Of a stretch of 42,488 bases of DNA, positions 8,355-23,558 are shown in pieces; the stretch's first letter is position 1, and every line of letters starts with the position of its first letter. This DNA is from Candidatus Eiseniibacteriota bacterium. GTDB taxonomy: Bacteria > Eisenbacteria > RBG-16-71-46. The position numbers and the translations under genes are program-made. The notes under the pieces were generated by a model. It searched no databases. It saw nothing but the letters and a program-made list of their open reading frames with translations, and was not told the DNA's origin. The DNA is taken from contig JACRPT010000057.1 of NCBI GenBank assembly GCA_016223045.1, positions 1-42,488 of the forward strand, in the 5' to 3' direction.

Positions 8355-9204
8355 GCGTAGAGTCGCGCCTCCGGTATTCGTCGCGCGCCACCAGCGTGAG
8401 CGGCCCGCCGAGGTCACGGCGCAGCTCGAGCCGCCAGGCCTGCGCGCGGTCCTGGCGGCGGTAGTTGCTGGTGAAGATCGAAGCGGGGAAGTAGTTGCGC
8501 AGCCCGAACGCGGCCTCGACGCGCGCCAGCACCGGGCCGACGCGGGTGCCGCCCGCGAGCGTCAGCTGGTTGTCGTAGAAGTCGTAGTTCGGGTCGTCGG
8601 CGCGCGCTCGCTCGTTCTCGAACTGGGCCGCGAAGCGCCGGTCGGACCGCGGCTCCCAGGCGAGCTGGTAGCCCCAGCGCGTGCGGACCTGCGTGCGCTC
8701 CGCGTGCAGCTCGTCGTAGCGCTGGCCGTCGGAGCGGAGCTCGAGGCTCGCGACCAACGCGCGCGCGAACCGCCAGTCGAGGCCGAGCAGGCCCTCGCGG
8801 CCGCCGTAGCGCGCGCCGCCGAGCGCGTCCGGGTAGAGCATGAGCTGGGGCGTGGCGCGCCCGCGGGCGCGCAGCCGCCAGCCGCCGAGGCGCGCGCGCA
8901 GCTCGGTCTCGTAGCGCTCGACGTCGCGCTCCTGCCAGCGGTCGTAGCGCTCCGCCGTGACGCCCGCGAGCCACTCGAGCCGCAGCGCCTCGAGGGGCCG
9001 GATGCGGGCCGAGGTCCCGGCGGTCACCAGGGCGAAGCGGTCGGGAGTCGAGCCCGCGTAACCCGGGAACACCTCCGAGGTGTAGCCGCCGTCCACCGAC
9101 GCGCGCGTGCTCCACTCGACCGCGCGGGCCGCGGCCGGCGCGATCGCCGGGACCAGGGTGGTCGCGAGCGCGGCGGCGAGCAGGGCGCGGGGCGCGGCGC
9201 TCAC
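8290..9204 (-). CDS. Predicted outer-membrane beta-barrel protein
   Basis: A 304-residue protein with a signal peptide (residues 1-28, cut near ARA-VEW). The mature part is made of alternating aromatic and charged strands typical of outer-membrane barrels (VDGGYTSEVFPGYAG, LRLEWLAGVTAERYDRW, QLAWEPRSDRRFAAQFENE, TLVARDEYRRRDS). Strands pair as hairpins with short turns and the sequence ends on a strand, NTVGLALDWRLGR. The GTG at 9204 is used as start because it overlaps the glycosyltransferase stop by four bases (GTGA) and begins the signal peptide. Within a glycan operon it could be the outer-membrane exit channel, or a barrel of the kind seen beside exopolysaccharide genes. Sequence alone does not settle the function. 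Confidence 0.8.
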   Translation of the reverse strand: MSAAPRALLAAALATTLVPAIAPAAARAVEWSTRASVDGGYTSEVFPGYAGSTPDRFALVTAGTSARIRPLEALRLEWLAGVTAERYDRWQERDVERYETELRARLGGWRLRARGRATPQLMLYPDALGGARYGGREGLLGLDWRFARALVASLELRSDGQRYDELHAERTQVRTRWGYQLAWEPRSDRRFAAQFENERARADDPNYDFYDNQLTLAGGTRVGPVLARVEAAFGLRNYFPASIFTSNYRRQDRAQAWRLELRRDLGGPLTLVARDEYRRRDSTRRDRDYRVNTVGLALDWRLGR

Positions 9205-10391
9205 GGTCGCACTCCCGCGTGCGGCGCCAGCGTGCGCGCGAGCGCGGTGAACTCGGCGGCGCGCCGCTCCCAGGTGTGCTCGCGCAGCACCTCCGCGCGT
9301 GCGGCCTCGCCCACCCGCCGCGCCAGCGCGGGGTCGGCGCGAAGCGCCAGCACGCACAGCGCGGCGGCGGCGACGTCGCCGGGCTCGTGCAGGAAGCCGG
9401 TCTCGCCATCGCGCACGTAGCGCGGCAGGTCGCCCTGGCGCGAGACCACCACCGGCAGGCCCGCCGCCTGGTACTCGAACAGCTTGAGCGGCGAGAAGTA
9501 GAAGGGCTCGAGCCGCGGGTAGGGCGCGAGCGCAACGTCCATGCGCGCGAGCCACGCCGGGACCTCCTCGTGGTCCACGGCGCCGGTGAAGACCGCCGCG
9601 CCACGCGCGCGGTCGCGCTGGAGCCGCCGCTCGAGCGCCGTGCGCTCGGGGCCGTCGCCCACCACCAGCAGCCGCGAATCGGGCGCCGCCTCGAGGACGC
9701 GCACGAAGATGCGCGCCAGGTCCTCGATCCCGTGCCACGGCCTGAGGCTGCCGCAGAAGCCGAGCGTGAAGCGGGTTCCCTCGGCATGACGCGGCGGCGC
9801 GATCGCGCCCCACGCTCCGTCCACGCCGTTCGGGAAGATCCGCACGCGGGCCGGCTCGGCCCCGTGCGCGCGCGCGTGCTCGGCGACCGCCTCGGAGACC
9901 GCGAGCAGCACCGCGGTGGCGCCGAAGACGTGGCGCGCGACGTCCGCGGCGCAGTCCACGTGGTGGAGCGTGCGGTAGCGCAGCGCCTCCGCCACCAGCG
10001 GGGCGTTCACCTCGAGCACGTGCGGCACCCCGAGCTCGCGCGCCGCGTCCACCCCGGCGCGGCTCCACAGGGCGTAGCGCTCGTAGACCAGGTCGGGGGA
10101 GAACTCCCGCGCCACCGCCAGGATCGTGGCGAGGTGCACGCGGTCGTGCGCCATCGCGTGCTCCTCGGCGGCGGGCGAGCCGGGCGGGGGGCCGGCCGGC
10201 GGCGGCGCGAGCGGCGGCAGCAGGAGGAAGCCGCCGCGCCGCTCGGCCGTGCGGCCGGTGCGGCTCGCGAGCACGCCCACCTCGTGCCCGGCGCGTGCCA
10301 GCGCACCGGCCATGGCGCGCACGTGCACCGAGGCGCCCTTGGCGCCGAAGACCGGCACGCCCGGGTCCGCGTTCAGGTAGAGGATCCTCAC
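9201..10391 (-). CDS. GT4-family glycosyltransferase
   Basis: A 396-residue GT-B enzyme. The N-terminal domain opens MRILYLNADPGVPVFGAKGA and contains HVRAMAGALARAGHEV, the classical donor-independent nucleotide fold of GT4. The C-terminal domain carries RIFPNGVD, TLGFCGSLRPWHGIED, SRLLVVGDGPER, and the acceptor loop PYPRLEPFYFSPLKLFEYQAA with the E of the E-x7-E signature. The start is a GTG at 10391 overlapping the previous stop (GTGA). It probably adds a sugar to a growing surface glycan. Neighbouring genes encode a MurG-like enzyme upstream and the barrel protein downstream. The sugar donor cannot be told from sequence. Confidence 0.92.
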   Translation of the reverse strand: MRILYLNADPGVPVFGAKGASVHVRAMAGALARAGHEVGVLASRTGRTAERRGGFLLLPPLAPPPAGPPPGSPAAEEHAMAHDRVHLATILAVAREFSPDLVYERYALWSRAGVDAARELGVPHVLEVNAPLVAEALRYRTLHHVDCAADVARHVFGATAVLLAVSEAVAEHARAHGAEPARVRIFPNGVDGAWGAIAPPRHAEGTRFTLGFCGSLRPWHGIEDLARIFVRVLEAAPDSRLLVVGDGPERTALERRLQRDRARGAAVFTGAVDHEEVPAWLARMDVALAPYPRLEPFYFSPLKLFEYQAAGLPVVVSRQGDLPRYVRDGETGFLHEPGDVAAAALCVLALRADPALARRVGEAARAEVLREHTWERRAAEFTALARTLAPHAGVRP

Positions 10392-11608
10392 GCGTGCGCC
10401 CTCCCCTCGAACCCGGGCTCGAGCAGCGGCACGTGCCCGTTGGTGCGGACCAGCCGCTCGAGTTCCCGCCGGATCCCGTGGTGTCCGTCGAACGCCAGCG
10501 GCGCCGGCAGCGGGGCGGCGGCGCGCGCCAGCTCCTCCGCGACCACCGCCAGGAGCTCGCCGCCGGGCAGCGCGTCGGGGTGCACGAGGCGCACCAGGCC
10601 GCGCGCCGCGAGGCGCTCGGCGCGGATGAGCTGCTCGGTGCGCGGCACGACGCGCGGCACCACCACGGCGCGGCGCCGCAGCGACAGGATCTCCATCACC
10701 GAGTTGTAGCCGCCCATGGTGACCACGACGTCCGCGGCGGCGAACAGCGAGGTCATGTGGCTCGAGAAGTCGGTGAAGAACACGTCGGGCCGCACGGCGC
10801 GCGTGCGCAGGCTCGCACGCTGCTCCTCCGGCATGCCCGGCCCGGCGACCAGGCAGTGGAGCGCGCCGGCGGGCCCGCCCACGCGCTCCAGCTCGCGCAG
10901 GTAGTGGTCGAAGACCGGGTATCCGTCCTCGCCGCCGCCTGCGGTCACGACGATGAGGCGCCGGCCGTCGAGCTGGAGCTCGCGCTCCACGGCCCCTCGG
11001 GGGAGGAGGCCGTTGTAGCGGGGCAGATAGCCCACGTAGACCGACCTGGCGGCGACCGCGGAGGGGAAGGCATACTCGCGCACGGTGTCGAACACCTCCG
11101 GGTCGCCGTAGATCCACACTGCGTCGTAGTGCTCCTCGATCACCTCCCACAGCCCCTCGCGCGACCACTCGCGCCGCAGTCCGTCGGGGTCGTCGAGCAC
11201 GTCGCGCAGGCCCAGCACGCGGCGGGTGCGCGCCCCGCGCGCCTCCAGGTCCTCGAGCGTCGTGAGCAGCTCGCCCTTGAGCCCCGCGGGCGTCTTGTCC
11301 ACCAGCAGCAGGTCGGGGTCGAAGGAGCGCGTCGTGTCGCGGATCACCGCGCTGCGCAGGCTCGAGAGCCGCTCGAAGTCCAGGTCCAGCGAGCGCGAGG
11401 CGTACACCGAGTTGTCCAGCTTGCGGACCGAGGGCAGCTTCACGTAGTCCACCCGGTCCGGCAGCCGGAAGCCCTCGGCCATGGGCGAGCCGGTGACGAC
11501 GAGCGCGGTGACCGAGGGGATGCTCCGCACCAGGTCGTCGCAGATCCCCAGCGTGCGGCGCAGGTGTCCCAGCCCGACCGTGTCGTGCGAATAGGCGAGC
11601 AGTCGCAT
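10388..11608 (-). CDS. MurG-like (GT28) glycosyltransferase
   Basis: A 406-residue protein of the GT28/MurG-like group. The N-terminal motif SHDTVGLGHLRRTLGICDDL is the conserved glycine-rich loop of predicted GT28 enzymes. The C-terminal domain has LIVVTAGGGEDGY and the donor-site stretch ADVVVTMGGYNSVMEIL, where Gly-Gly-Tyr-Asn and the Glu match the UDP-sugar contact region. These proteins are cytoplasmic and act on lipid-linked or protein acceptors; true MurG is shorter and lacks the insert here, so this is not the peptidoglycan enzyme. It is the first gene of the nine-gene minus-strand glycan run. A 7-bp hairpin (11658-11676) lies in its leader. Confidence 0.87.
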   Translation of the reverse strand: MRLLAYSHDTVGLGHLRRTLGICDDLVRSIPSVTALVVTGSPMAEGFRLPDRVDYVKLPSVRKLDNSVYASRSLDLDFERLSSLRSAVIRDTTRSFDPDLLLVDKTPAGLKGELLTTLEDLEARGARTRRVLGLRDVLDDPDGLRREWSREGLWEVIEEHYDAVWIYGDPEVFDTVREYAFPSAVAARSVYVGYLPRYNGLLPRGAVERELQLDGRRLIVVTAGGGEDGYPVFDHYLRELERVGGPAGALHCLVAGPGMPEEQRASLRTRAVRPDVFFTDFSSHMTSLFAAADVVVTMGGYNSVMEILSLRRRAVVVPRVVPRTEQLIRAERLAARGLVRLVHPDALPGGELLAVVAEELARAAAPLPAPLAFDGHHGIRRELERLVRTNGHVPLLEPGFEGRAHA

Positions 11609-11752
11609 GGGTCTCTCGGGACCTCGGGTCGTGGGGGGAGCGCGGATGGAGCGGTTCGGGCGCCCTCGCGGCGCCCGGTTCGGAAGGCATAGGTGCGGGG
11701 GGTGGCGGGTTTCGTACGCGGAGAATCGGCGTCGCGAGCCCGTGAAAGGGAA

Positions 11753-11854: not shown

Positions 11855-13216
11855 CTACCTGAGGCCGGACATCGGCACTCCGGACGTCGGCCGCAGCGCC
11901 GCCGGCGGCAGGTCGGGCAGCAGGGCGGCCCCCGCGTCCAGGGCGCCCTCGCCGAAGTTGCTCTCGGCGTCCGACTGGGACACGCCCGCCAGCGGCGCGG
12001 CCGTGGCGCCCAGGCGCGACATCACCTGGTCCTCGGTCCAGTCCGGGTGGAGGGAGAGCAGCAGGGCCGCGCTGCCGGTCACGAACGGAGTGGACATCGA
12101 GGTGCCGCTCCACAGCCGGTAGCCGCCGCCCGGGTAGGCGCTGCGCACGCCGGCGCCGGGAGCGCAGAGGGCGACGAAGCTGCCGTAGGAGGTGAAGGTG
12201 GCCGGGCGGGCCTGGGCGTCCACCGCGGCGACCGCCGCGGTGTGGCTGCTGCGCGCCGGGAACTCCTGGGGGCTGGAGGCGCCCCAGTTCCCGGCCGAAG
12301 CGAAGCACAGGACGCCGCGCGCCTCCGCGAGTTCGAGTGCGCCCTGGATGGCGTCGCTGCTCTGGAGCATGCCGAGGCTCATGTTGATGGCGCGCGCGCC
12401 GTGCGCGATGGCCCAGCGGATGCCCGCGGCCACGTTGAGCATGTCGCCGCGGCCGTCGGAATCGAGCACCCGTACGATGAGCAGGCGCGCCTTCGGGGCG
12501 GTGAGCGCCACGATGCCCGCGACGTGCGTGCCGTGGCCCCAGGCCCCGTCCACGACGCCGTCGCCGTTGCTGTCGCGGCCGGTCCTGACGTCGGTCGGAT
12601 CGGCGGTGTTGCCCACGAAGTCCCAGCCACCGGCGATGCGCCCGGCCAGCGCGGGGTGGGTGAGGTCGGCGCCGGTGTCGAGGATGGCGACCAGCACGCC
12701 CTCACCCTCGCTCACGGCATGCGCGGCGGCGAGGTGGACGGCCTCGGCGGCGGGCTGCTCGAGGTAGGTCTGCGGGGCGCCTTGCCCGTCGTCGAAGGCG
12801 AAGCTCTGCTGGCGGGCCTCGGGCGCGTCCATCCAGGCGTCGCGCTCCGAAGTGACGACGCGCGGATCGCGCGCGAGCTGCGCGCTCAGCGAGTCGGGCA
12901 GCTCTCCGGCCGCGGGCCGCAGCAGCGCGCCCTCCTCGTCGGAATCCACCAGCGTGGCGTGATAGTCGCCGGCCAGCACGGCCGGGTCGGTGCCCGCGGT
13001 CAGGGTGACGACCACGCCGTTCGCGACGTCGTCGTTCGACGGGTTCCCGGGGAGCGGGTTGCCCGGGCGGTCGGCGGCGGGCGCGCCGGTCCGCGGGGCG
13101 ACCGGGAGCCCGCGCGAGCAGGAGGCGGCCAGCAGCGCGGCAGCCGCGAGCGTCACCCCGGCGACGAGGCGGAGAATCCTGGGACGAATGGTCCGGGCAA
13201 GACGGACTTGAGCCAT
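11855..13216 (-). CDS. Subtilisin-like (S8) lipoprotein protease, cassette copy A
   Basis: A 453-residue protein. A lipoprotein signal ends at lipobox LLAASC (Cys33), after a basic start. Residues 60-130 are a short prodomain of inhibitor type. The catalytic domain is complete: Asp180 in AILDTGAD, His228 in GHGTHVAG, oxyanion Asn310 in ASAGNWGA, and Ser373 in SGTSMSTPF. An acidic loop DSNGDGVVDG just before the His motif looks like a calcium site. The ATG at 13216 has an ideal GGAGG 6 nt upstream. It is the last gene of the cassette, 24 nt after the CHAT gene, and ends before a strong hairpin. It would act on the periplasmic side of the envelope. Its paralogue is at 17512-18864. Confidence 0.94.
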   Translation of the reverse strand: MAQVRLARTIRPRILRLVAGVTLAAAALLAASCSRGLPVAPRTGAPAADRPGNPLPGNPSNDDVANGVVVTLTAGTDPAVLAGDYHATLVDSDEEGALLRPAAGELPDSLSAQLARDPRVVTSERDAWMDAPEARQQSFAFDDGQGAPQTYLEQPAAEAVHLAAAHAVSEGEGVLVAILDTGADLTHPALAGRIAGGWDFVGNTADPTDVRTGRDSNGDGVVDGAWGHGTHVAGIVALTAPKARLLIVRVLDSDGRGDMLNVAAGIRWAIAHGARAINMSLGMLQSSDAIQGALELAEARGVLCFASAGNWGASSPQEFPARSSHTAAVAAVDAQARPATFTSYGSFVALCAPGAGVRSAYPGGGYRLWSGTSMSTPFVTGSAALLLSLHPDWTEDQVMSRLGATAAPLAGVSQSDAESNFGEGALDAGAALLPDLPPAALRPTSGVPMSGLR

Positions 13217-13240
13217 GGCGACCTCCGTGGGAGCGGGAGC

Positions 13241-16042
13241 TTAGATTCTACCTACCGGGTCCGGGGTTTCGAAGTTCCTGCTTCCTGTCCCCTCCGGGGT
13301 GGCCGGGGGCGCCGGTCCGGGACCGGTGAGCGCCACGAAGCCCGCCCATTCCAGGGGGTGCACCCCGGCCCTCCGCCGGGCGGATTGGGCCCCCGCGAGG
13401 GACGCGCCGAGGGATTCCCCGGCGGCCAGCCGCCGGTAGAGGTCCGCCATCAGGACCGCGGCGGCCGCGTCCTCGAGGTCCCATTGCGGCGCCACGACCG
13501 CGCGGGCGCCCGCCAGCAGGAGCGACCGGGCCAGGCCGAACCACTCTTCGCCCGGGTGCACCAGCGCGCGCGCGGTCTGGCAGGCCGACAGCGTCACCCA
13601 GCGCGCGTTCAACCTGAGATCCGCCAGCTCCCCGGCCAGCAGCCAGCGGTCGGCGAAGCGCAGGCCCGACTCCTGCGGGGCGTCGGGGCGATGGACCCCG
13701 TGTCCGGCGAAGTGGATCCACGGAGCGCCGGGGGCCAGCTCGAGGAACCGGGCCGCCGTGGCCTGGTCGCCGGCCAGCAGCCGCGCCCCGGGGAAAGCCC
13801 CCAGCACGGCGCGGGTCTCGGGCCCGACGTTCTCCAGCTCGCCGGCGTCGGAGGCGATGACGAGCGGGCCGCTCGCGGGCACGCCGACCCGGCTTCGGTG
13901 GGCGCCCGGCCGCGGTCGCGCGAGGCCGAGCCTCAGGCCCGGCACCACGGCCAGCTCCATCGCCTCGCACAGCGCGCGGCCGTCGGGCAGCGGCAGCGCC
14001 GCCCACGGCAGCCGGGTGAGCGGACCGACCGGCGCGACCGCGAGGCTGGCGGGCGTCTCCCTCCCCGCAAGCAGCGGCCAGAGCACGAGCGAGGCCAGCT
14101 CGTGGAGCTGCTCGTCCAGCCGCGGGTCCCCGGGGCGCGCCGCGGGAGGCGCGAACGCCGCGCTGCGCAGCGCGAACAGCAGGGCGTGCGCGAGCTGCCC
14201 GAGCATGCCTTCGGCGGCGAGCCTCGGGTGCCCGGCCAGCCCGCCGCGCCGCACCGCGATGGCCGAGAGCGCGCCCTCGTGCAGCAGGTAGTCCACCAGC
14301 AGCGTGCGCGGCGGGAGCAGGCGCCGCAGCGCGGCGGCGCGGATCGAGCGCGGCGGGCGCGCCTCGAGCACGCGCCGCAGGCCGGGACCCACCTTCGGCG
14401 GGTGCCCCGCCGCGGCCTCCGCGTGCGCCGGTGCGGCCGTCGGCGCCGCCGGGACCGAGCGCGCGTTGTGTTCGCGCTCGCGCGCCAGCCGGCCCACCGC
14501 CCAGGCGCGCACGCCCGGCGGCAGCGGGCCACCGGCCGCGCGCCGCGCGCGCGCCTGGCCGACCAGCGCGCGGCCGCGCCCGGCCTCGAGCGCCTCCAGC
14601 GCCTCGGCCACCCGGCCGTGCTCCAGCTCGAGCGCGGCCAGCTCGCGGTGCGGCCAGCCCCACTCGCCCCAGAACGTGGAGCGCCACTGCTCGTCGAGGA
14701 TGCGCGCGGCGAGGCGCTCGGACTCGCGCGCGGCGCGCCGGAGCCAGGTGCGGGCGCGCGCGAGATCGCCGCGCCCGCGCGCCGCTGCGGCTTCGGCCGC
14801 CAGCGAGAGGTGCCGCAGCCGCGGCGACGCGTGGCGCGTGCCCCCGAGCCGGCGCAGCGCCGCCAGGCTCGCCTCGGCCGCGCGCGGCTGGCCGCAGCGC
14901 AGGCGGGCGCGGGCCCTGAGCGCCAGTGCGCAGCCCTCGCGCTCGCGGTCACGCGCGCGCGCAAAGTGGAAGCGCGCCGCGCCGAGCAGCGCCGCGGCGG
15001 CGCGCGGGTTGCCCTCGCGCTCCCACACCGTGGCCAGGCCCACCAGCGCCTCGCCCATCCACACCGAGTTGCCCTCGGCGTGGAAGATCCCCAGCGTGCG
15101 CTCCAGCCGCTGGCGCGCCGCGGCGCTCTGGCCGAGCCGGAACTCGGCGAGCGCCGCGAAGGTCTCGGCCTTGGCGCGCTCGTAGCGCAGGCCGAGCGCG
15201 CCGGTCGCCTCGACGGCCCGCCCGGCCTCCTCGAGCGCTTCGGGGTGCACCCCCATGCGCAGGAGGATCTCCGCGCGGTCGAGCGTCGCCAGCGCCGCCA
15301 GCGAGGGATAGCCGTGATCGCGCGCCGCGCGGCGCACCGCCGCGAGCGCGTCGAGCGCCGCCTCGTGCCGGTGCTCGAGGAAGTCGAGGTAGGCGAGGTT
15401 GTACTCGGCGTTCAGCGCGTCGAGCTCGAAGCCCGCCGCCGCGCCCGCGCGCCGCGCGCTCAGGTAGTGACGGCGCGCGGGCGCCGGCTGCCCGAGCAGC
15501 GCCAGGCAGTTCGCGACGTTGATCTCGACCAGGGCCGCGCCGCGCGTGTCCCCGGCGCGGCGCAACCCGCGCGTCGCGTCGCGGTAGCAGGCCAGCGCGC
15601 GCCCGGGAAGGTCGAGCCGGTGGAAGAGGTTGCCCTCGTTGTTGAGCAGCCGCGCCAGGCTGACCCGGTCGCCGGCGCGCCGGAGCAGCCGCCGCCCGCG
15701 CCGCGCCGCGCGCTCCGCCTCGCCGTAGCGCGCCAGGTACATGAGCGCGTCCACCAGGCCGATGGCGCAGCGTCCCTGCTCGCGCCGGTCGCCGGCCGCC
15801 GCGTACCAGCGCTCGGCCGCGCGGTACGCCGCCGCGGCCGGGCGCGCCCGGCGCAGGCCGCGCAGCACGTGGCCGCGCAGGCGCCACAGCCCGCCGCGCG
15901 TTGCCGGATCGGCGCCGCGGGCCGCCGCCGCGAAGTCGCGCGCGAGCGCCCGCAGCGCACGCTCCGGCCGGGTGCGGCGCAGCGATTCGACGCGCTGGAT
16001 GAGGCGGGACGCGCGCGCGGCGGGCGCGATGGTCGCGGTCAC
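13241..16042 (-). CDS. TPR-CHAT caspase-like protease, cassette copy A
   Basis: A 933-residue protein without signal peptide or membrane segment. Residues 45-490 are an array of tetratricopeptide-like helical hairpins (for example LLNNEGNLFHRLDLPGRALA and NAEYNLAYLDFLEHRHEAAL). A Pro/Ala-rich linker follows at about 525-550. Residues 560-910 are a CHAT (caspase HetF associated with TPRs) domain, with the catalytic dyad visible as His781 in IHFAGHG and Cys821 in TLSACQTA, followed by GARAVVAPQWDLED and EWAGFVALTG. Family members are cysteine peptidases; separase and the TPR-CHAT protease of type III-E CRISPR are relatives. The GTG at 16042 is 7 nt after the anti-sigma stop. The target is unknown; the flanking sigma/anti-sigma pair and subtilase are candidates. 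Confidence 0.93.
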   Translation of the reverse strand: MTATIAPAARASRLIQRVESLRRTRPERALRALARDFAAAARGADPATRGGLWRLRGHVLRGLRRARPAAAAYRAAERWYAAAGDRREQGRCAIGLVDALMYLARYGEAERAARRGRRLLRRAGDRVSLARLLNNEGNLFHRLDLPGRALACYRDATRGLRRAGDTRGAALVEINVANCLALLGQPAPARRHYLSARRAGAAAGFELDALNAEYNLAYLDFLEHRHEAALDALAAVRRAARDHGYPSLAALATLDRAEILLRMGVHPEALEEAGRAVEATGALGLRYERAKAETFAALAEFRLGQSAAARQRLERTLGIFHAEGNSVWMGEALVGLATVWEREGNPRAAAALLGAARFHFARARDREREGCALALRARARLRCGQPRAAEASLAALRRLGGTRHASPRLRHLSLAAEAAAARGRGDLARARTWLRRAARESERLAARILDEQWRSTFWGEWGWPHRELAALELEHGRVAEALEALEAGRGRALVGQARARRAAGGPLPPGVRAWAVGRLAREREHNARSVPAAPTAAPAHAEAAAGHPPKVGPGLRRVLEARPPRSIRAAALRRLLPPRTLLVDYLLHEGALSAIAVRRGGLAGHPRLAAEGMLGQLAHALLFALRSAAFAPPAARPGDPRLDEQLHELASLVLWPLLAGRETPASLAVAPVGPLTRLPWAALPLPDGRALCEAMELAVVPGLRLGLARPRPGAHRSRVGVPASGPLVIASDAGELENVGPETRAVLGAFPGARLLAGDQATAARFLELAPGAPWIHFAGHGVHRPDAPQESGLRFADRWLLAGELADLRLNARWVTLSACQTARALVHPGEEWFGLARSLLLAGARAVVAPQWDLEDAAAAVLMADLYRRLAAGESLGASLAGAQSARRRAGVHPLEWAGFVALTGPGPAPPATPEGTGSRNFETPDPVGRI

Positions 16043-16049
16043 GGGCCGG

Positions 16050-16661
16050 TCACAGGGTGAGGGCGCCGAGCTGGTAGCGCACGCCCGGGCCGGTCACGGT
16101 GAGCCGCACGCGCCCGGCGGGCACGCGGTCGAGGGCGAACGCGCCGTGTGCGTCCGGGAGCGCGGTGCGCCGCTCGGCGCGGGCCGCCAGCTCCACGCGC
16201 CACAGCGCCGGGTCGGCGCTGCGCAGCCAGCCGCGGACCGACACCGTGCCGCGGCCCTCGGGCTCGCACTCCAGCTCGAGCGCGTCCTCACCGAGCGCGA
16301 AGCGCAGGCGGCGCACCTCGCCCACGGCGCGGCGCGCCGCCGCCGGCAGCGGCGCCGTCCACGAATCGAACAGCAGGCGGGCCGCCGCCTCGACGCGCCG
16401 GCGCAGCGGCACCCGCGCCCCGATCGGCTGGAACACGGCGAGCGCGCGCTCGCGCAGCGTGGCCGGCACCTCGGGCGTGAGGTCGCCGCGCATGGTCTCG
16501 ATCAGGCCGCCGAAGACGCGCACGCGCTCGTGGCAGTCCGGGCACGGGCTGCCCAGGTGTTCCTCGACCGCCCGGCGCCTTTGCGCCGGGAGCATGTCCT
16601 CGAGGTAGTCCAGGGCCGTGCGGGTGTCGAGGTGCCGGCCCGTGGCGCGCGGTTCCGTCAT
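16050..16661 (-). CDS. Zinc-finger (HC2-type) anti-sigma factor, cassette copy A
   Basis: A 203-residue protein whose start overlaps the sigma gene by four bases (ATGA). The N-terminal 50 residues form the anti-sigma zinc helix pair: RTALDYLEDMLP, then EEHLGSPCPDCHERV with His35, Cys40 and Cys43 (His-x4-Cys-x2-Cys, one residue longer than the usual His-x3-Cys-x2-Cys). Unlike most such proteins it has no membrane helix. The C-terminal 80 residues read as a beta-sandwich resembling a carboxypeptidase-regulatory fold (LPDAHGAFALDRVPAGRVRL). It is expected to bind and silence its sigma factor in the cytoplasm. Its neighbour downstream is a protease, so cleavage rather than membrane signalling may release the sigma factor. 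Confidence 0.85.
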   Translation of the reverse strand: MTEPRATGRHLDTRTALDYLEDMLPAQRRRAVEEHLGSPCPDCHERVRVFGGLIETMRGDLTPEVPATLRERALAVFQPIGARVPLRRRVEAAARLLFDSWTAPLPAAARRAVGEVRRLRFALGEDALELECEPEGRGTVSVRGWLRSADPALWRVELAARAERRTALPDAHGAFALDRVPAGRVRLTVTGPGVRYQLGALTL

Positions 16662-17383
16662 CGTCTGCCCTCCGATCGTGCCGTCGCGGCCGCCCGGCCC
16701 GGCACCCGCCCGGAGCGCCGGCCGCGGTCCGGCCCGCGGAGCTTCGGACGCTCGGGGGCAGAGGTGGCGGCCCGGCGGGTTTTCGTACGGGATTCCTTCG
16801 CCATGCGGGCGAAGATGTCACGCAGTCGCTCCAGGCAGCGCGCGCGGTTCGGGCCCAGCGAGTTCATGGGCATGCCGAGCCGGCGCGCCAGCTCGGCGTA
16901 GGAGGCGGGCTCCTCCTCATAATAGAGGGCGCCGAGCAGGCGCCGGCAGCGCTCGCCGAGCGCGGAGAACGCCAGCCGGACCATGGCCTGCCGCTCGAAC
17001 GATTCCAGCTCGGCGCCGACCGGCGGGCCGCCGGCCGCGAGGCGCTCGAGGGTCACAGGGTCGCCGGTGTGGAGTGCCTGCTCGCGCCGCCGCCTCAGCG
17101 CGGTGGCGCGAGCGATGCGGTCGGTGGTGCTCGACAGCCACCGCACCAGGCTGCGCGGGTCGCGCAGCGACGGCAGCCCCTTCACCAGCGCGGCGAAGAC
17201 CTCCTGGAACACGTCGCCCAGGTCGGGATCGGACAGCCGGTAGGAGCGCGCCACCGCGTAGACCAGGCGCTCGTGGCGGCGGACCATCGCCTCCCAGGCG
17301 CGCGCATCGCCGGACAGACAGCGTGCGACCAGGCGCGCGTCCTCATCGGGGTCGAGCATCCCCGGCAGCGGCGGCAATCTCAT
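16658..17383 (-). CDS. ECF-type sigma factor, cassette copy A
   Basis: A 241-residue sigma-70-family factor with ECF architecture. Region 2 (about residues 18-100) contains LVARCLSGDARAWEAMVRRH, the core-binding YAVARSYRLSDPDLGDVFQEVF and the -10 contact helix RWLSSTTDRIARATALRRRR. Region 4 (about 133-195) is a helix-turn-helix: ALYYEEEPASYAELARRLG, then MPMNSLGPNRARCLERLRDI. A basic 45-residue tail follows. The ATG at 17383 is preferred; longer versions start in sequence that is not conserved in copy B. An element TAGAGT lies 7 nt before the ATG. The anti-sigma gene overlaps its stop. The factor probably controls the cassette itself and other genes, by family precedent. Confidence 0.9.
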   Translation of the reverse strand: MRLPPLPGMLDPDEDARLVARCLSGDARAWEAMVRRHERLVYAVARSYRLSDPDLGDVFQEVFAALVKGLPSLRDPRSLVRWLSSTTDRIARATALRRRREQALHTGDPVTLERLAAGGPPVGAELESFERQAMVRLAFSALGERCRRLLGALYYEEEPASYAELARRLGMPMNSLGPNRARCLERLRDIFARMAKESRTKTRRAATSAPERPKLRGPDRGRRSGRVPGRAAATARSEGRR

Positions 17384-17390
17384 CCGGGCG

Positions 17391-17396
17391 ACTCTA
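17391..17396 (-). promoter_or_regulatory. Leaderless -10-like element before sigma copy A
   Basis: TAGAGT on the minus strand (TANNNT pattern) ends 7 nt before the sigma ATG. The identical CTAGAGTC at the same spacing precedes copy B although the flanks differ. This matches -10 elements of leaderless transcripts in high-GC bacteria, where the first transcribed base is the start codon. No -35 hexamer is obvious. Confidence 0.45.
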
Positions 17397-17449
17397 GAGC
17401 ACGCGCCCCGGAGCCGCCACCCGACCTCCGCGCGTGCCCCCAACGGTCA

Positions 17450-17498
17450 GGGCCGGCGACGCGGTGGCGTCGTCGGCCCCGAGGGTCCCGTGGGGACC
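17450..17498 (-). terminator. Two hairpins ending cassette B
   Basis: Just after the copy-B subtilase stop (17512) the minus strand meets a 6-bp stem (17484-17498, 3-nt loop) and then a 13-bp stem with one mismatch (17450-17462 with 17467-17479, loop GGTG). Neither has a T-run. They separate the two cassettes, leaving copy A with its own start signal. Confidence 0.5.
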
Positions 17499-17511
17499 GA
17501 TCGAAGAGCTG

Positions 17512-18864
17512 CTACCTCCGCACCGGGCTGCTCGCGGGGGTGCGGTCCGCGTCGCCGGCCGGCAGGTCGGGTCCGAGCGCCGCACCCGCGTCGAGCGCGC
17601 CCGAGCCGAGCTTCGAGGACAGCGTGGCGCTGGCGTTCACCAGCGCGTGCGACCAGGCGCCGATGCGGGCCCGCACCGCCGCGGGCTGCCACGACGGGTG
17701 GTTGGCGAGCAGCAGCGCCGCGGTACCCGACACGAACGCGGTGGACATCGAGGTGCCGCTCCACAGCCGGTAGAGCCCGCCCGGATAGGCGCTCCGCACC
17801 GCGATGCCCGGAGCACACAGGTCCACGAAGCTGCCGTACGAGGTGAAGCTGGCCGGCTGGTTCTCCGCGTCCACCGCGGCCACCGCGACCACGTCGCTGC
17901 TGCGGGCCGGGAACTCCTGCGGCGTCTCGGCGCCCCAGTTGCCGGCGGAGGCCACGAGCAGCACGCCCTCGCCCGCGGCCTGGACGATCGCCGAGTTGAT
18001 GGCGGGGCTGCTCTGCAGCATGCCGAGGCTCATGTTGATGACCCGGGCGCCGTGCTGCGTGGCCCAGCGGATCCCCGCCGCCACCGAGCGCACGTCGCCG
18101 CGGCCGTCCGAGTCGAGCACGCGCACGATCAGGAGCCTCGCCTGCGGGGCGACCAGCGAGACGATGCCGGCGATGTGGGTGCCGTGCCCGTACGCCCCGT
18201 CCACCACGCCGTCGGCGTTGCTGTCCACGCCGTCGTGGGTGTCGCCGAAGTCGGCGTCATTGCCGATGAAGTCCCAGCCGCCGGCGATGTGGCCGGCGAG
18301 CGCCGGGTGGGTGGGGTCGGCGCCGGTGTCCAGGATCGCGACCGGCACGTCGCTGCCCCGGCTCGCATAGTGCGCCGCGTAGAGGTTGATCGCCTCGGCC
18401 GCGGGCTGCTGCTGGTAGGCGTCCGCCGTGCCGTAGCCGTCGTCGAACGCGAAGCTGCGCTGGCGCGCCTCGGCCGGCACCAGCACCGCGTTCTGCTCGA
18501 CCGTCGCCACGCGCGCATCGCCCGAGATGCGCCGGCACAGCACGTCCGCCGCCTCGCCCCCGGTCGGGCGCAGCACCGACACCCCGTTGGTGACGTCCAC
18601 CACCAGCGCGCCGTAGTCGCTGGCGATCAGGTAGGGGTCGGCGCCCGGCGCTACGGTGATGACGACCTCGTCGGTCTCGGTGGTCGAGCCGGTCGCGGAA
18701 CCGACGGGTCCGCGCGCCTCCTGCACGCTCGGCGCGGTGAGCGGTGCTCGCGAACACGACGCGGCGCCCAGCGCGAGCGCGAGGATCGCCGCCAGGAGTT
18801 GCGCGCTCACGGGGGGGCGTTGCCGCGCGCGGACGGAGTGTGGAGCAGGGCTGATGGCTGACAT
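17512..18864 (-). CDS. Subtilisin-like (S8) lipoprotein protease, cassette copy B
   Basis: A 450-residue paralogue of the copy-A protease. The ATG at 18864 has GGGAGG upstream and starts a lipoprotein signal ending at GAASC (Cys37). The prodomain occupies about 60-140. Catalytic residues are all present: Asp179 (AILDTGAD), His227 (GHGTHIAG), Asn309 (ASAGNWGA) and Ser372 (SGTSMSTAF). The Pro that normally follows the Ser motif is Ala here. Another shared stretch is FAFDDGYGTADAYQQQPAAE, the linker to the catalytic domain, and both copies end in GALDAGAAL-x-PDLP. Its start lies 68 nt after the last CHAT codons. The enzyme looks functional even though its CHAT partner gene is broken, so the two can apparently be uncoupled. 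Confidence 0.93.
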   Translation of the reverse strand: MSAISPAPHSVRARQRPPVSAQLLAAILALALGAASCSRAPLTAPSVQEARGPVGSATGSTTETDEVVITVAPGADPYLIASDYGALVVDVTNGVSVLRPTGGEAADVLCRRISGDARVATVEQNAVLVPAEARQRSFAFDDGYGTADAYQQQPAAEAINLYAAHYASRGSDVPVAILDTGADPTHPALAGHIAGGWDFIGNDADFGDTHDGVDSNADGVVDGAYGHGTHIAGIVSLVAPQARLLIVRVLDSDGRGDVRSVAAGIRWATQHGARVINMSLGMLQSSPAINSAIVQAAGEGVLLVASAGNWGAETPQEFPARSSDVVAVAAVDAENQPASFTSYGSFVDLCAPGIAVRSAYPGGLYRLWSGTSMSTAFVSGTAALLLANHPSWQPAAVRARIGAWSHALVNASATLSSKLGSGALDAGAALGPDLPAGDADRTPASSPVRR

Positions 18865-18932
18865 GACGACCTCCCGTTCGGGCTTCGATAGTAGATCAAG
18901 CGCCTCAGCTACGGGGGGGAATTCCTCGGGTC

Positions 18933-21603
18933 TCATCTCTGGATCCTTCCGTCTTCCACCGGGCGGGGGCTCCGCGCCCGGGACGGCTCAGGCCGCGGGG
19001 CGCCCCGCCGCCCGATCCCGGCCCGGCCGGCCTCCGGCCCGGCCAGCACCACGAATCCGGCCCACTCGACCGGATGGACCCCGGCATGCCGTCGCGCGGC
19101 CTGTGCCCCGGCGAGAGCCCGGCCCAGCCCCTCGCCGAGCGACAGCCGGCCGTAGAGGTCCTCCATCAGCGCCGCGGCCGCGGCGTCCTCGATGTCCCAC
19201 TGCGCGGCCACCACCGCCCGCGCCCCCGACAGGAGCAGCGCGCGGGCCAGTCCGAACCACTCCTCGCCCGGGCGCACCAGCGCGCGCGCGCTCTGGCAGG
19301 CCGAGAGCGTGACCCAGCGGGCGGCGAGCCCCACGTCGGCCAGCTCGCCCGCCAGCAGCCAGCGATCGGCGAACCTCAGGCCCGACTCGTGCGGGGCCTC
19401 GGCCCGGTAGTGCCCGTGCCCGGCGAAGTGGATCCAGTCCGCCGCGGGCGCCAGCTCGAGGACGCGCGCGGCGGTCGCCCCGCCGCCCGCCAGCTCCCGG
19501 CACCACGGTCAGCTCGAGCGATTCGCACAGCGCGCGCCCGTCCGCCAGCGGCAGCGCCGCCCACGGCAGCCGCGCCAGGGGCGCCACCGGCACCACGGCC
19601 AGCGCGCGCAGGCGGTCCAGCGCCGCGCCGCGCGGCAGCGCCGGCCACAGCGCGGCCGCCGCCAGCAGCGTCAGCTCCTCGTCGAGCGCCCCGTCCGCCG
19701 CTCGCGCGTCCCGCGAGGTCCAGGCCGCGCCGCGCAGGCTGAAGAGCAGGGAGTGGACGAGCCGCGCGAGCCTGGCCTCGGGCACCAGCTGCGTGGCCGC
19801 CGCGAGCCGCGCGCGCGAGACCGCGATGGCATGGAGCGCGCGGTCGTGGATCAGGTAGTCGAGCAGCAGTGCGTCGTCCGCCAGCGAGCGCTGCAGCGCC
19901 GCGGCGCGGACGGCGCGCGGTGCCAGCGCCGCGAGCGCGCGCCTGAGCCCGGCGCTATCGATCTCGACCGCCGGCGGCGCCACCACCGCCTCGGCCGCGC
20001 GCGCGGTGCGCTCGCGGTCGCGCGCGAAGCGCCCGGCCGCCCACTCGCGCACCCGCTTCGGCAGCGCCCCGCCGCGCGCGCGCCGCGGATGCGCCGGGCC
20101 CATCAGCGCCCGCCCGCGCCCACCCTCCAGCGCCTCGAGCGCCTCGGCCAGCCGCCCGCCCGACAGCTCGAGCGCCGCCAGCTCGCGGTGCGGCCAGCCC
20201 CACTCGCCCCAGAAGGTGGCGCGCCAGTGCTCGTCGAGGATGCGCGCGGCGAGGCGCTCGGACTCGCGCGCCGCGCGCCGCAGCCAGGTGCGGGCGCCCG
20301 CGAGGTCGCCGCGCGCCCGGCTGAACGCGGCCTCGGCCGCCAGCACCAGGTGCCCGAGGCGCGGCGAGACGCGCCGCCCGGCGCGCGCGCGCAGGCGCGT
20401 CAGACAGGCGTGCGCTGCGCTGCGCGTGGCGCCGCCCGCGGGTCCGCCGCACTCGAGGTGCGCGCGCGCCAGCAGCGCCAGGGCGCAACCTCCGCGCTCG
20501 CGGTCGCCGGCGCGCGCGAACCGCCGGCGCGCCGCCGCCAGCAGCCCCGCCGCGGCGCGCGGGTTGCCCTCGCGCCACGCCAGCGTCGCCAACCCCACCA
20601 GCGTCTCTCCGGTCCACACCGCGTTGCCCTCGCGGTGGAAGGCGGCGAGCGTCCGCTCGAGCCGCGCGCGCGCGGCGGATGCCCGGCCCAGCCGGTACTC
20701 GGCCAGCGCGGCGAAGGTCTCGGCCTTGGCGCGCTCGTAGCCGAGATCCACCGCGGCGCAGGCCTCCATCGCCCGGCGCGCCTCCGCGAGCGCTTCGTCG
20801 TGCGCGCCCATGCGCAGGAAGATCTCGCTGCGGTCGAGCGCCGCGAGCGCGGCGAGCCACGGGTAGCCCCGCGGGCCGGCCCCGGCCGCGACGCGCGCCA
20901 GCGCCTCGAGCGCCGACTCGTAGCGGTGCTCGAGGAAGTCCAGGTAGGCGAGGTTGTACTCGGCGTTCAGGGTCTCGAATGCCGCGCCGGCGGCCTCGTT
21001 CACGCGCCGCGCCTCCTCGTAGAGCCGGCGCGCCCCGGCGAGCCGGCCGAGGAGCGAGAGGCAGTTCGCGACGTTGCCGCCGATCACCGCCGCGCCGCGC
21101 GCATCGCCGGCGCGCGCCAGCGTGCGGCGGGCCTCGCGGTAGCGGGCCAGCGCGCGCCCGGGGAGGTCCAGCCGGTGGAAGAGGTTGCCCTCGTTGTTGA
21201 GCAGCCGTGCCAGGCTGACGCGGTCGCCCGCGCGCTCGAGCAGCCGCCGCCCGCGCCGCGCCGCGCGCTCCGCCTCGGCGTAGCGTGACAGGTACATCAG
21301 GGAATCCACCAGCCCGATCGCGCAGCGTCCCTGTTCGCGCGGGTCGCCGGCGGCGGCGTACCAGTGGCCGGCGCGCCGGTAGGCCTCGGCCGCCGGCCGC
21401 ATCCGCTGGAGCGCGCGCAGCACGTGGCCGCGCAGGCGCCACAGCGCGCCGCGCTGCGCCGGCGCCGCGCCCCGCGCCGTGGCCGCGAAGCCGCGCGCCA
21501 GCTCGCGCCACGCCTCCTCCGGCCGTTCGCGGCGCAGCGACTCGACGCGCGCGATGAGCGCGTCGGCCCGAGCGGCTCCGTCTTCCGTGGAGGTCTCGCT
21601 CAT
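18933..21603 (-). pseudogene. TPR-CHAT protease, cassette copy B, frameshifted by an internal deletion
   Basis: A paralogue of the copy-A TPR-CHAT gene. Translation from 21603 (CGGGAG before the ATG) matches copy A through the TPR array and half of the CHAT domain to the residues LELTVVPG. At about 19495-19503 roughly 52 codons present in copy A are missing and the frame changes. From there the correct frame runs to a stop at 18933 and still encodes IHFAGHG (catalytic His) and TLSACQSA (catalytic Cys), then AVVAAQWDIED and EWAGFVVLAG. The unshifted frame stays open by chance to 18988 because of the high GC, giving an 871-residue protein with a nonsense tail and no catalytic dyad. The missing segment also rules out simple ribosomal frameshifting. 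An assembly or sequencing error across a repeated stretch is possible. Confidence 0.85.
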
Positions 21604-21619
21604 GGCGTCGCTCCCGGGA

Positions 21620-22231
21620 TCACATCGTCAGGGGGGGAAGTCGGAATCGGCCGGTCGGGCCGGTGACGGTCAGGTGCGCCTCGCCCGCGGGCACGCGCTC
21701 GAGCGCGAAGCGTCCGGACGAATCGGGGAGCGCGGTGAAGCGCTCCCCGCTCGTTTCGACCTCGAGCCGGAACAGTGCGGAGTCGGACGCCCGCAACCGT
21801 CCACGCAGGCTGACCAGGCCTGCGGCCTCGGTCTCGCACTCAAGTTCGAGCACATCGTCCATGAGTGCGAAATGGAGCCGGCGTGCCTCGCCGACCGCGC
21901 GGCGCGTGGCCGCGGGCAGGGGTGAGGCCCACGAGTCGAAGACCAGGCGCGCCACCGCCTCGAGCATGCCGCCCGCGGGTTCGGGCCGCGTGGCCGGCGC
22001 GAACGCCGCGAGCGCGAGCGCGCGCAGCGACTCCGGCACTACGGGCGTGCGGTCGCGGCGCATGCGCTCGATCAGGCGGCCGAGCGCGCGCACCCGCTCG
22101 TGGCACTCCGGGCAGGGACCGGCCAGGTGCTCCTCCACCTCGGTCCGGCCGGCGTGGGGCAGCAGGCCTTCGAGGTAGTCGAGCGCGGTGCGCGCGTCGA
22201 GATGGCGACCGGGGGACCGCCGGGGGGTCAT
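21620..22231 (-). CDS. Zinc-finger (HC2-type) anti-sigma factor, cassette copy B
   Basis: A 203-residue paralogue, the same length as copy A, with the same arrangement: RTALDYLEGLLP, then EEHLAGPCPECHERV (His35, Cys40, Cys43). There is again no membrane helix, and the C-terminal half is beta-rich (LPDSSGRFALERVPAGEAHL). The start overlaps the sigma stop by four bases. The conserved spacing of the zinc ligands in both copies suggests the His-x4-Cys form is real. The central portion (residues 50-110) differs more between copies, which may give each anti-sigma its own partner. It ends 16 nt before the CHAT-B start. Confidence 0.85.
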   Translation of the reverse strand: MTPRRSPGRHLDARTALDYLEGLLPHAGRTEVEEHLAGPCPECHERVRALGRLIERMRRDRTPVVPESLRALALAAFAPATRPEPAGGMLEAVARLVFDSWASPLPAATRRAVGEARRLHFALMDDVLELECETEAAGLVSLRGRLRASDSALFRLEVETSGERFTALPDSSGRFALERVPAGEAHLTVTGPTGRFRLPPLTM

Positions 22232-22932
22232 CGGTTCTCCTCCGTCCGTTCTGTCGGTGACGCGTCGTCGTCCTCGGGGGCGCGGCGGCGCTGCGCGTCT
22301 TCAGTTCCAGAGGTGGGCGGCGTGCCCGGGCTGATACCACCGCCGGCGGCCGCGAGGGCGGCCAGCCCCCGGCGGAGGCGCTCCATGCACCTTGCACGGG
22401 TCGGCCCCAGCGAGCCGATCGGCACGCCCAGCCGCCGGGCGAGGTCGGCATAGGAGGGGGGCGGATCCTCGTAGTAGAGCGCGGCCAGCAGCCGGCGGCA
22501 GCGCTCGTGGAGCCCGGCGAGCGCCAGCCGCACCAGCGCCTGCTCCTCCTGCTCCTCGAGGTCGGCGCCCACCCACGGGTCGGCGCCCGGCAGCCGCTCC
22601 AGGTCCTCGGGGTCCGCCGTCATCGCCCGCTCGCGGCGCCGCCTGAGCGCGGTGGCGAGCGCGATGCGGTCGGTGGTGCTCGAGAGCCAGCGCACCAGCG
22701 CCCGCGCGTCGCGCAGGCGGGGAAGACCCCGCACCAGCGCCGTGAAGACGTCCTGGAAGACGTCGGCGAGGTCGGCTTCGTCCAGGCTGTAGGAGCGGGC
22801 GACCGCGTAGACCAGGCGCTCGTGCCGGCGGACCAGCGCCTCCCAGGCGCGCGCATCGCCGGCCAGACAACGCTCGACCAGCCGCGCGTCTTCGGCGGGG
22901 TCGAGCGAGGTCGCGCGCTCCGGGCCGGTCAT
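22228..22932 (-). CDS. ECF-type sigma factor, cassette copy B
   Basis: A 234-residue paralogue of the copy-A sigma factor. Over the 41 residues starting at LDP, 36 are identical by eye. Region 2 runs about 18-100 (YAVARSYSLDEADLADVFQD; RWLSSTTDRIALATALRRRR) and region 4 about 130-190 (YADLARRLGVPIGSLGPTRA). The tail after 200 is acidic and Pro-rich, unlike the basic tail of copy A. The ATG at 22932 is supported by conservation and by the TAGAGT element 7 nt upstream. An open frame continues far upstream but has no conserved protein in it. It is the first gene of cassette B. Confidence 0.9.
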   Translation of the reverse strand: MTGPERATSLDPAEDARLVERCLAGDARAWEALVRRHERLVYAVARSYSLDEADLADVFQDVFTALVRGLPRLRDARALVRWLSSTTDRIALATALRRRRERAMTADPEDLERLPGADPWVGADLEEQEEQALVRLALAGLHERCRRLLAALYYEDPPPSYADLARRLGVPIGSLGPTRARCMERLRRGLAALAAAGGGISPGTPPTSGTEDAQRRRAPEDDDASPTERTEENR

Positions 22933-22939
22933 GGCGGGG

Positions 22940-22945
22940 ACTCTA
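22940..22945 (-). promoter_or_regulatory. Leaderless -10-like element before sigma copy B
   Basis: TAGAGT on the minus strand lies 7 nt before the ATG, in the block CTAGAGTC shared with copy A at identical spacing. There is no purine-rich ribosome site between it and the ATG in either copy, which fits a leaderless start. Confidence 0.45.
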
Positions 22946-23558
22946 GCATGGGGGCGCGAGCCCGGCCGGGCGGCGGCGGCTGCCTGCCGGGAGCCGGCGG
23001 TCGCGAGCCCGGCCGCGGCACGGGCCGGGCACGCGGCCACCGCATCTACCCGCGGGGCGCGGCCGGTCGCGACCTCTCGCACCGATGTATCAGACCGCCG
23101 CACCCCCGCACCTGTGTGGGTGCATGGAGTCGGAGAGGTAGCCCCCCTTCCTCGAAAGCTCCCTGCCAAACGGCCGTCCGTCGCGGGGCCTCGGTCCAAA
23201 ACGCAACTCGGGCTGATGGCTTCGAGGACTCGAGGCGCCCGCGGACGGCCGATGCGTCCATCGGACCACCGGCGCTCATGACCGGCGATCCCCCCGCCCC
23301 TGCGCAAGCCGGGCGGTGCCGCGAGCGCCGGTGGCCGATCGCTGCCCGGGGCGCGCTCCGGTCCCCCGGCGCTCCCCCGGGCCCTCTGCCGGCCGCCCGG
23401 ACGCACCCGCGCCGTCCGCCCGCCCGAGCGGGAGGAAGTGGCGCCAGAAGCTCGAGCAGGCGTTGCCAGGAGTCGCTGGGGCCCGCGATCGACATCTGCT
23501 CCGGGTTCGGTGCCTGCGCGTCCTCGGGTCCTCGCCACGGAGACACGCGAGGGGGCCC
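22946..23558. other. Spacer upstream of cassette B, no gene supported
   Basis: About 610 nt between the sigma-B start and the K+ channel stop. Frames here are open only because of the GC content. On the minus strand an ATG at 23495 opens SIAGPSDSWQRLLELLAPL, which looks like the beginning of a real protein, perhaps a relict, but the rest is Arg/Gly/Pro noise. No hairpin, repeat or RNA gene is convincing. Confidence 0.4.

Follow-up and report, generated by a model that had tools for sequence, protein, structure and literature searches.

Does a unit of four genes that joins an extracytoplasmic function (ECF) sigma factor to an anti-sigma factor, a TPR-CHAT protease and an S8 subtilase constitute a defined regulatory system and, if so, how might that system work? 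The question is raised by a 42,488-nucleotide stretch of Candidatus Eiseniibacteriota DNA (contig JACRPT010000057.1, here called the window, which is part of a 3.88-Mb, 164-contig assembly), for which an initial annotation had described the same four genes twice in the same order and on the same strand. The coordinates confirm this description: cassette A (22932->17512) and cassette B (17383->11855) lie head to tail on the minus strand, with sigma starts 5549 bp apart, and in each the order is ECF sigma, soluble anti-sigma, TPR-CHAT and S8 lipoprotein (Pfam Sigma70_r2, weak zf-HC2, TPR plus CHAT, and Peptidase_S8, respectively). We find that this unit recurs across phyla and carries a promoter motif that changes together with a helix of its sigma factor, and we propose a model in which the caspase-like protease would control the sigma factor.

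Two cassettes in one genome

Both sigma factors are two-domain proteins that contain sigma-70 regions 2 and 4 only, as is characteristic of the ECF class. Pfam Sigma70_r2 and TIGR02937 score above cut-off (E 7e-10 and E 6e-21 for sigma A), and region 4 is recognised weakly. On the basis of homologue alignments, the region-4 helix of sigma A (22228..22932, 234 residues; all features are on the minus strand unless stated) is VPIGSLGPTRARC, and sigma B (16658..17383, 241 residues), which is also identified by Pfam, has the deviant -35 helix MPMNSLGPNRARC. The stop codon of the sigma gene overlaps the start codon of the anti-sigma gene as ATGA in both cassettes, as had been noticed earlier, and the matching lengths reported within pairs are seen in the two anti-sigma factors (A, 21620..22231; B, 16050..16661), which both have 203 residues. 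The S8 genes encode a protein of 453 residues in cassette B (11855..13216; Peptidase_S8 E 6e-45) and one that starts at 18936 or 18864 in cassette A (17512..18936; Peptidase_S8 E 3e-46, with a lipobox-like AASC); the alignment shows that the Asp/His/Ser triad columns, represented by Asp180, the HGTH motif and Ser373, are conserved.

The TPR-CHAT gene is intact in cassette B but not in cassette A. In cassette B, this gene (13241..16042) encodes an uninterrupted protein of 933 residues (Pfam CHAT E 1.4e-42). Open reading frames, Pfam and comparison with copy B reveal that its counterpart (18933..21603) carries an out-of-frame deletion. At about 19494 (19480-19510) it lacks the stretch corresponding to residues 703-755 of copy B, 53 residues that immediately precede the catalytic His motif; the part carrying the catalytic His and Cys continues in another frame to 18933. 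This break may reflect decay through a real mutation, or the assembly may have collapsed where the DNA is very GC-rich.

Protein identity between the copies is 73% for sigma, 61% for the anti-sigma, about 65% for CHAT and 61% for S8, and DNA identity is about 76-79%, so that the match between the cassettes reflects homology rather than chance. A and B are sisters, with weak support, in the anti-sigma, CHAT and S8 trees, and the concatenated tree groups them with 81% ultrafast bootstrap; the sigma tree alone leaves their relationship unresolved. The long branches of both copies show that the duplication is old, but it seems to be restricted to the lineage of the source genome. Each cassette was also thought to end at hairpins. 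GC-rich inverted repeats without a clear T run are visible there by eye, but a terminator scan returned one site in all, which is within shuffle expectation, and none at either cassette end.

Recurrence of the unit in other genomes

Searches with the anti-sigma located one copy in each of 7 of the 19 other genomes of the family, together with weaker matches in three other families of the class. On every contig of sufficient length, the genes run in the order sigma, anti-sigma, CHAT, S8, both in five genomes of the family (loci L014 to L018) and in another family of the class (L021), and where contigs are split the two cassette halves agree with this order (L013 with L037, L019 with L038, and L026). 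A first contig scan queried with the anti-sigma gave no match, and the sigma signature succeeded as a query: the pattern [VM]P[VIM]GS[LIV]GPTR, searched for in 84,980 species, yielded at least 515 confirmed loci, 80 of which were kept. Neighbourhoods were counted for the 55 kept loci having at least 5.2 kb downstream. CHAT is present in 47 of these, CHAT plus S8 in 43, and sigma, CHAT and S8 occur in same-strand order in 27. Our script recognised an anti-sigma in 23 of the 27 ordered loci; among the remainder, L077 has an anti-sigma that was missed by the distance rule, L113 has an open reading frame with the zinc motif in the expected place, and gene 2 was not identified in L048 and L061. Hosts of the ordered unit include Planctomycetota, Chloroflexota, Armatimonadota, Acidobacteriota, Burkholderiales and Rubrobacter, and a gemmatimonadete locus (L102), just under the flank limit, has the same order. 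In Actinobacteria such as Amycolatopsis, Saccharothrix and Kribbella the genes are kept, with S8 or CHAT turned or moved.

This recurrence in other genera, families and phyla rules out the idea that the unit is an accident of one genome. Moreover, the four gene trees co-vary, with Mantel r values (species history left in) of 0.56 to 0.80 that none of 999 permutations matched; the values are 0.80 for sigma/anti-sigma, 0.80 for sigma/CHAT, 0.76 for anti-sigma/CHAT and 0.72 for S8/CHAT. Both checks proposed in the initial annotation, gene-order conservation and co-phylogeny, thus come out in its favour, and we are all but certain that the four-gene module is real. As a separate observation, genome G003 contains, besides its main cassette, a second, divergent locus with sigma, CHAT and S8 genes (L039:5044-10806), in which an anti-sigma was not recognised.

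A promoter motif that changes with the sigma helix

The motif GTATCA-N16-CACCT is found without mismatch in 8 of 8 family cassettes (those of copy A and of the seven relatives in which this part is present). It lies in the 3' end of the sigma gene and precedes the start of the anti-sigma gene by about 80 to 100 bp. In cassette A, this predicted sigma A-dependent promoter (22311..22337) is upstream of the anti-sigma, CHAT and S8 genes. Codons under the motif have T as third base in 8 of 8 cassettes, compared to 7.2% T elsewhere in these genes, which argues for selection on the DNA and rules out constraint on the protein as the cause of the motif. In its general form, GTATYW-N16-CACCT/CTCTGT, the motif occupies the sigma/anti-sigma junction. 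Among 73 loci outside Eisenbacteria, the two boxes are present at the same place and in the same sense in 21, and in antisense in none, relative to a mean of 0.135 and a maximum of 2 over 200 shuffles. In Actinobacteria, the motif stands before sigma instead of after it. An antisense promoter inside sigma (AGGTG-N16-TGATAC) is ruled out by two results: in other phyla GTATYW is enriched in the sense orientation alone, and GTCTTT co-varies with the sigma helix as described below.

The first box differs according to the sigma helix. Sigma factors with a GPTR helix are associated with GTATYW at 30 loci and with GTCTTT at none, while those with a SISPLR helix have GTCTTT-N16-CACTG in 7 of 7 loci (Fisher 1e-7 versus GPTR loci). 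GPNR occurs in copy B alone, for which a motif scan places the site, GTACGA-N16-CACCT, upstream of anti-sigma B (16762..16788). Because the -35 element changes with the region-4 helix in these pairings, copies A and B probably read different promoters. The source genome has three exact matches to GTACGA-N16-CACCT and 12 to the reversed control pattern, and so the argument for copy B rests on the position of the site and not on its rarity. We consider it very likely that the promoter is read by the adjacent sigma factor, and a change of promoter code in copy B is probable.

The earlier view that the cassettes form a defined regulatory system gains substance from the conservation of the promoter and from the way in which it changes with the sigma helix. 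The companion claim that each copy has its own start element is only partly correct. Both sigma genes have TGCT(CT)AGAGT 7 nt before the ATG, and sequence inspection identifies TAGAGT as a sigma-70-like -10 element, preceded by TGC, at 22940..22945 for sigma A, with the same element at 17391..17396 for sigma B. The sigma-dependent promoter, however, is located elsewhere, inside the 3' end of the sigma gene.

The anti-sigma factor and the two proteases

Pfam gives gene 2 only weak domain names, such as zf-HC2. The family profile, however, matches solved anti-sigma factors (3hug_B, E 0.0014; RsiW, E 0.0037), and the AlphaFold2 model of anti-sigma B, which has helices at 13-77 followed by a C-terminal beta-sandwich, has ChrR (2q1z) as its best Foldseek match. 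The same combination of a zinc anti-sigma domain and a beta-sandwich is assigned to anti-sigma A from zinc ligand alignment and profile matches. Ligands H10-x24-H35-x4-C40-x2-C43 are invariant in 11 close homologues, in agreement with the ligand pattern and four-helix domain of class I zinc anti-sigma factors (HxnHx3Cx2C); the spacing is x4 in the Eisenbacteria family and x3 in L020. Taken together, we have high confidence that gene 2 encodes an anti-sigma factor. Its initial description as a zinc protein is apt for these close homologues, but the ligands are lost in many phyla; mixtures of zinc and zinc-free anti-sigma factors within one group are known (PMC7406223). Arg110 (codon 16332-16334 in copy B) is the only invariant residue in 42 anti-sigma homologues, and the AlphaFold2 model places it within residues 100-116, a loop that connects the first strands of the beta domain.

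The predicted structure of CHAT B consists of a TPR superhelix and a CHAT domain with the dyad H781/C821, which is invariant in 16 homologues and corresponds to the His/Cys pair of clan CD peptidases. Its sequence matches Csx29 chains, and Foldseek reports fold matches of the model to separase and Csx29. The TPR-CHAT protein also has a fold match to the Myxococcus anti-sigma DdvA (PDB 8rw5 / 8rot), which hints at a further link of CHAT/TPR proteins to sigma control; there is no sequence match to DdvA among the matches listed, we found no paper describing its domains, and it remains a lead.

Calling the S8 protein an envelope subtilase is reasonable for Eisenbacteria, where a lipobox-like cysteine follows a hydrophobic stretch, but not for the actinobacterial S8 proteins that we examined closely (L087, L089, L090, L100 and L112), which have no evident signal peptide and are often encoded in the opposite orientation. 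The role of these proteins may differ from that of the lipoprotein form. In genome G002, CHAT is followed by two S8 lipoprotein genes in tandem (L038:1716-4569).

A proposed switch and alternative explanations

How might these parts act together? In the model that we favour, which builds on the gene order and its conservation, on the domain content and on a promoter motif that varies in step with the sigma helix, and which takes the direction of regulation as presumed, a housekeeping-type promoter would give low-level transcription of sigma. The N-terminal zinc domain of the cytosolic anti-sigma, next to which is the C-terminal beta-sandwich, would keep sigma inactive. A signal at the TPR superhelix would then cause CHAT to cleave the anti-sigma, possibly after Arg110 in its exposed loop, and thereby free sigma. 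Separase cuts after Arg, and this makes Arg110 a candidate cleavage site. Cleavage itself is proposed by analogy with DiCASP, in which cleavage of the sigma inhibitor Csx30 by Csx29 releases CASP-sigma (PMC10028731). Free sigma and RNA polymerase would read GTATCA-N16-CACCT, with the main site in the sigma/anti-sigma junction, and so produce more anti-sigma (a brake), CHAT (an accelerator) and S8 lipoprotein (a surface protease). After duplication, the helix of copy B would have changed from GPTR to GPNR and its promoters to GTACGA-N16-CACCT, which would insulate the two switches from each other. The circuit is well supported, whereas the cleavage step is one that we infer; cleavage of the anti-sigma by CHAT has a little less than an even chance of being correct, Arg110 as the actual site is doubtful, and for the self-regulated switch as a whole we judge the odds to be evenly balanced.

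Several observations weigh against this model. With CHAT A broken, copy A would be without its accelerator in this assembly, and the S8 protein has no assigned role in the switch. Rubrobacter, Burkholderiales, most Acidobacteriota and Actinobacteria have lost the zinc ligands or the first three helices but keep the C-terminal beta domain, so that the anti-sigma role in these lineages rests on synteny. Arg110 may be a structural residue and not a cleavage site. In addition, species phylogeny accounts for part of the Mantel correlations, roughly one locus in three lacks both promoter boxes, and there are few independent co-variation events, given that the SISPLR loci are all from Acidobacteriota and copy B is a single case.

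An alternative is that both proteases are outputs. The zinc anti-sigma would itself sense a cytosolic signal, such as oxidation in the manner of ChrR or RsrA, and free sigma, which would induce two effector proteases together with its own anti-sigma. This would fit the promoter, which puts CHAT and S8 downstream of sigma, and the fact that soluble zinc anti-sigma factors are usually redox sensors (PMC8999054; PMC7406223). Many lineages, however, have no zinc ligands and yet retain CHAT and the beta domain, and the co-variation with sigma and anti-sigma is tighter for CHAT than for S8; we regard this explanation as rather unlikely. ChrR/SigE and other class I pairs do resemble the present one in having a soluble four-helix zinc domain with H-x24-H-x(3,4)-C-x2-C, in the overlap of its gene with sigma and in the top fold match, but gene 2 ends in a transthyretin/Ig-like sandwich instead of a cupin and is coupled to CHAT and S8.

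The proteases might instead keep sigma off by degrading it, as published for ECF54, a group with carboxypeptidase, subtilase and CHAT neighbours for which control by proteolysis without an anti-sigma has been proposed in a review (PMC8999054, section 3.3). That gene 2 has a zinc anti-sigma motif and the ChrR fold, and that the Eisenbacteria S8 looks like an exported lipoprotein out of reach of sigma, make this mechanism improbable here. Our unit very probably belongs to the same broad group. ECF54 (PMC8999054) likewise comprises two-domain sigma factors next to CHAT, subtilase and "carboxypeptidase" genes, and our actinobacterial loci (Amycolatopsis, Saccharothrix and Kribbella) share the sigma signature and genes, with weak CarboxypepD_reg matches in gene 2. 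CHAT and S8 are strong matches here and CarboxypepD_reg is below cut-off; plausibly, the "carboxypeptidase" of ECF54 is the CarboxypepD_reg-like half of gene 2. The present unit differs from ECF54 as described in that gene 2 matches anti-sigma profiles and the ChrR fold, the order is fixed in most non-actinobacterial loci, S8 is exported and the promoter lies after sigma and not before it. The impression that the system has no known name therefore needs qualification: ECF54 has been described with the same neighbours, while, relative to the literature that we found, what is new is that gene 2 is identified as an anti-sigma, that the gene order holds across phyla, that there is a promoter which co-varies with sigma, and that the unit has a diverged duplicate. 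For an ECF context previously explained by sigma-degrading proteases without an anti-sigma, these findings give a concrete circuit; they fill the place of the anti-sigma and point to a promoter sequence, a site at which cleavage might occur and possible targets.

A role in defence or abortive infection, in which CHAT would sense infection and set off a response through transcription and proteolysis, like that of type III-E CRISPR, is suggested by the Csx29-like fold and by the sigma/inhibitor/CHAT logic of DiCASP (PMC10028731). PADLOC, however, returned no convincing match and gives this reading no support, no Cas7-11 gene is seen among the open reading frames and Pfam matches of the window cassettes, and the predicted targets are glycan and surface genes; we give it little credence. 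Craspase/DiCASP (Csx29, Csx30 and CASP-sigma) and our unit are alike in combining a TPR-CHAT protein, an ECF sigma and a cytosolic sigma inhibitor in one locus, and in dyad and fold. They differ in that the inhibitor here is a zinc anti-sigma with a beta-sandwich, and that there is no crRNA (CRISPR RNA); Cas7-11, a CRISPR array and Csx30/Csx31 are absent in and beside the window cassettes. The unit is thus not a type III-E CASP locus, which leaves unaffected the proposal that it works like Craspase. Separase and other clan CD proteins share the helical repeat array and caspase-like domain, but the present protein is bacterial and encoded in a sigma operon. If the switch model is true, Craspase-type control, with a caspase-like protease acting on a sigma inhibitor, would operate in a much larger non-CRISPR setting. 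We put forward only tentatively, and as somewhat doubtful, a widespread, CRISPR-free class of caspase-controlled sigma switches in at least eight phyla, in which a separase-like protease would open the sigma/anti-sigma lock with one cut after an invariant Arg; a duplicate within one genome would have evolved an orthogonal promoter code. Copies A and B, like the SISPLR loci, offer a natural experiment in the joint change of sigma specificity and promoters.

Predicted targets and neighbouring genes

In Eisenbacteria, the sigma factors would act at further promoters at glycosyltransferase clusters and secreted-protein genes, on which basis we propose that the output is cell-surface remodelling; we see no evidence for the cell-fate role suggested initially; the predicted targets are glycosyltransferases and secreted proteins. 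A second GTACGA-N16-CACCT site (11691..11717, motif scan) precedes by 82 bp a GT28-like glycosyltransferase gene (10388..11608; Pfam Glyco_tran_28_C E 2e-8), a predicted sigma B target with homologues near and divergent from the cassette in L016 and L019. The next gene of this cluster encodes a GT4 glycosyltransferase (9201..10394; Pfam Glyco_trans_1_4 E 2e-26). On the plus strand upstream of sigma A, the motif scan finds a divergent copy of the promoter motif (23087..23113), which in relatives faces divergent glycosyltransferases: the divergent site of L016 faces GT28, further glycosyltransferases, GT4 and an ABC transporter, and that of L019 faces GT4, with a separate site before GT28. Another GTATCA-N16-CACCT site in the source genome (G000, C153) precedes a gene for a signal-peptide protein, and further sites in relatives (L174, L170, L176 and L173) stand before GT2, similar secreted propeller-like proteins (G013 and G018) and a second S8. 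Single sites in L159 and L169 are probably due to chance.

Within the window, the divergent promoter at 23087-23113 points into an ion-channel gene (23562-24335), which is upstream of cassette A and shares its strand. The region 25818-27521 encodes an FG-GAP repeat protein with a C-terminal FlgD-like domain, which is probably a secreted surface protein.

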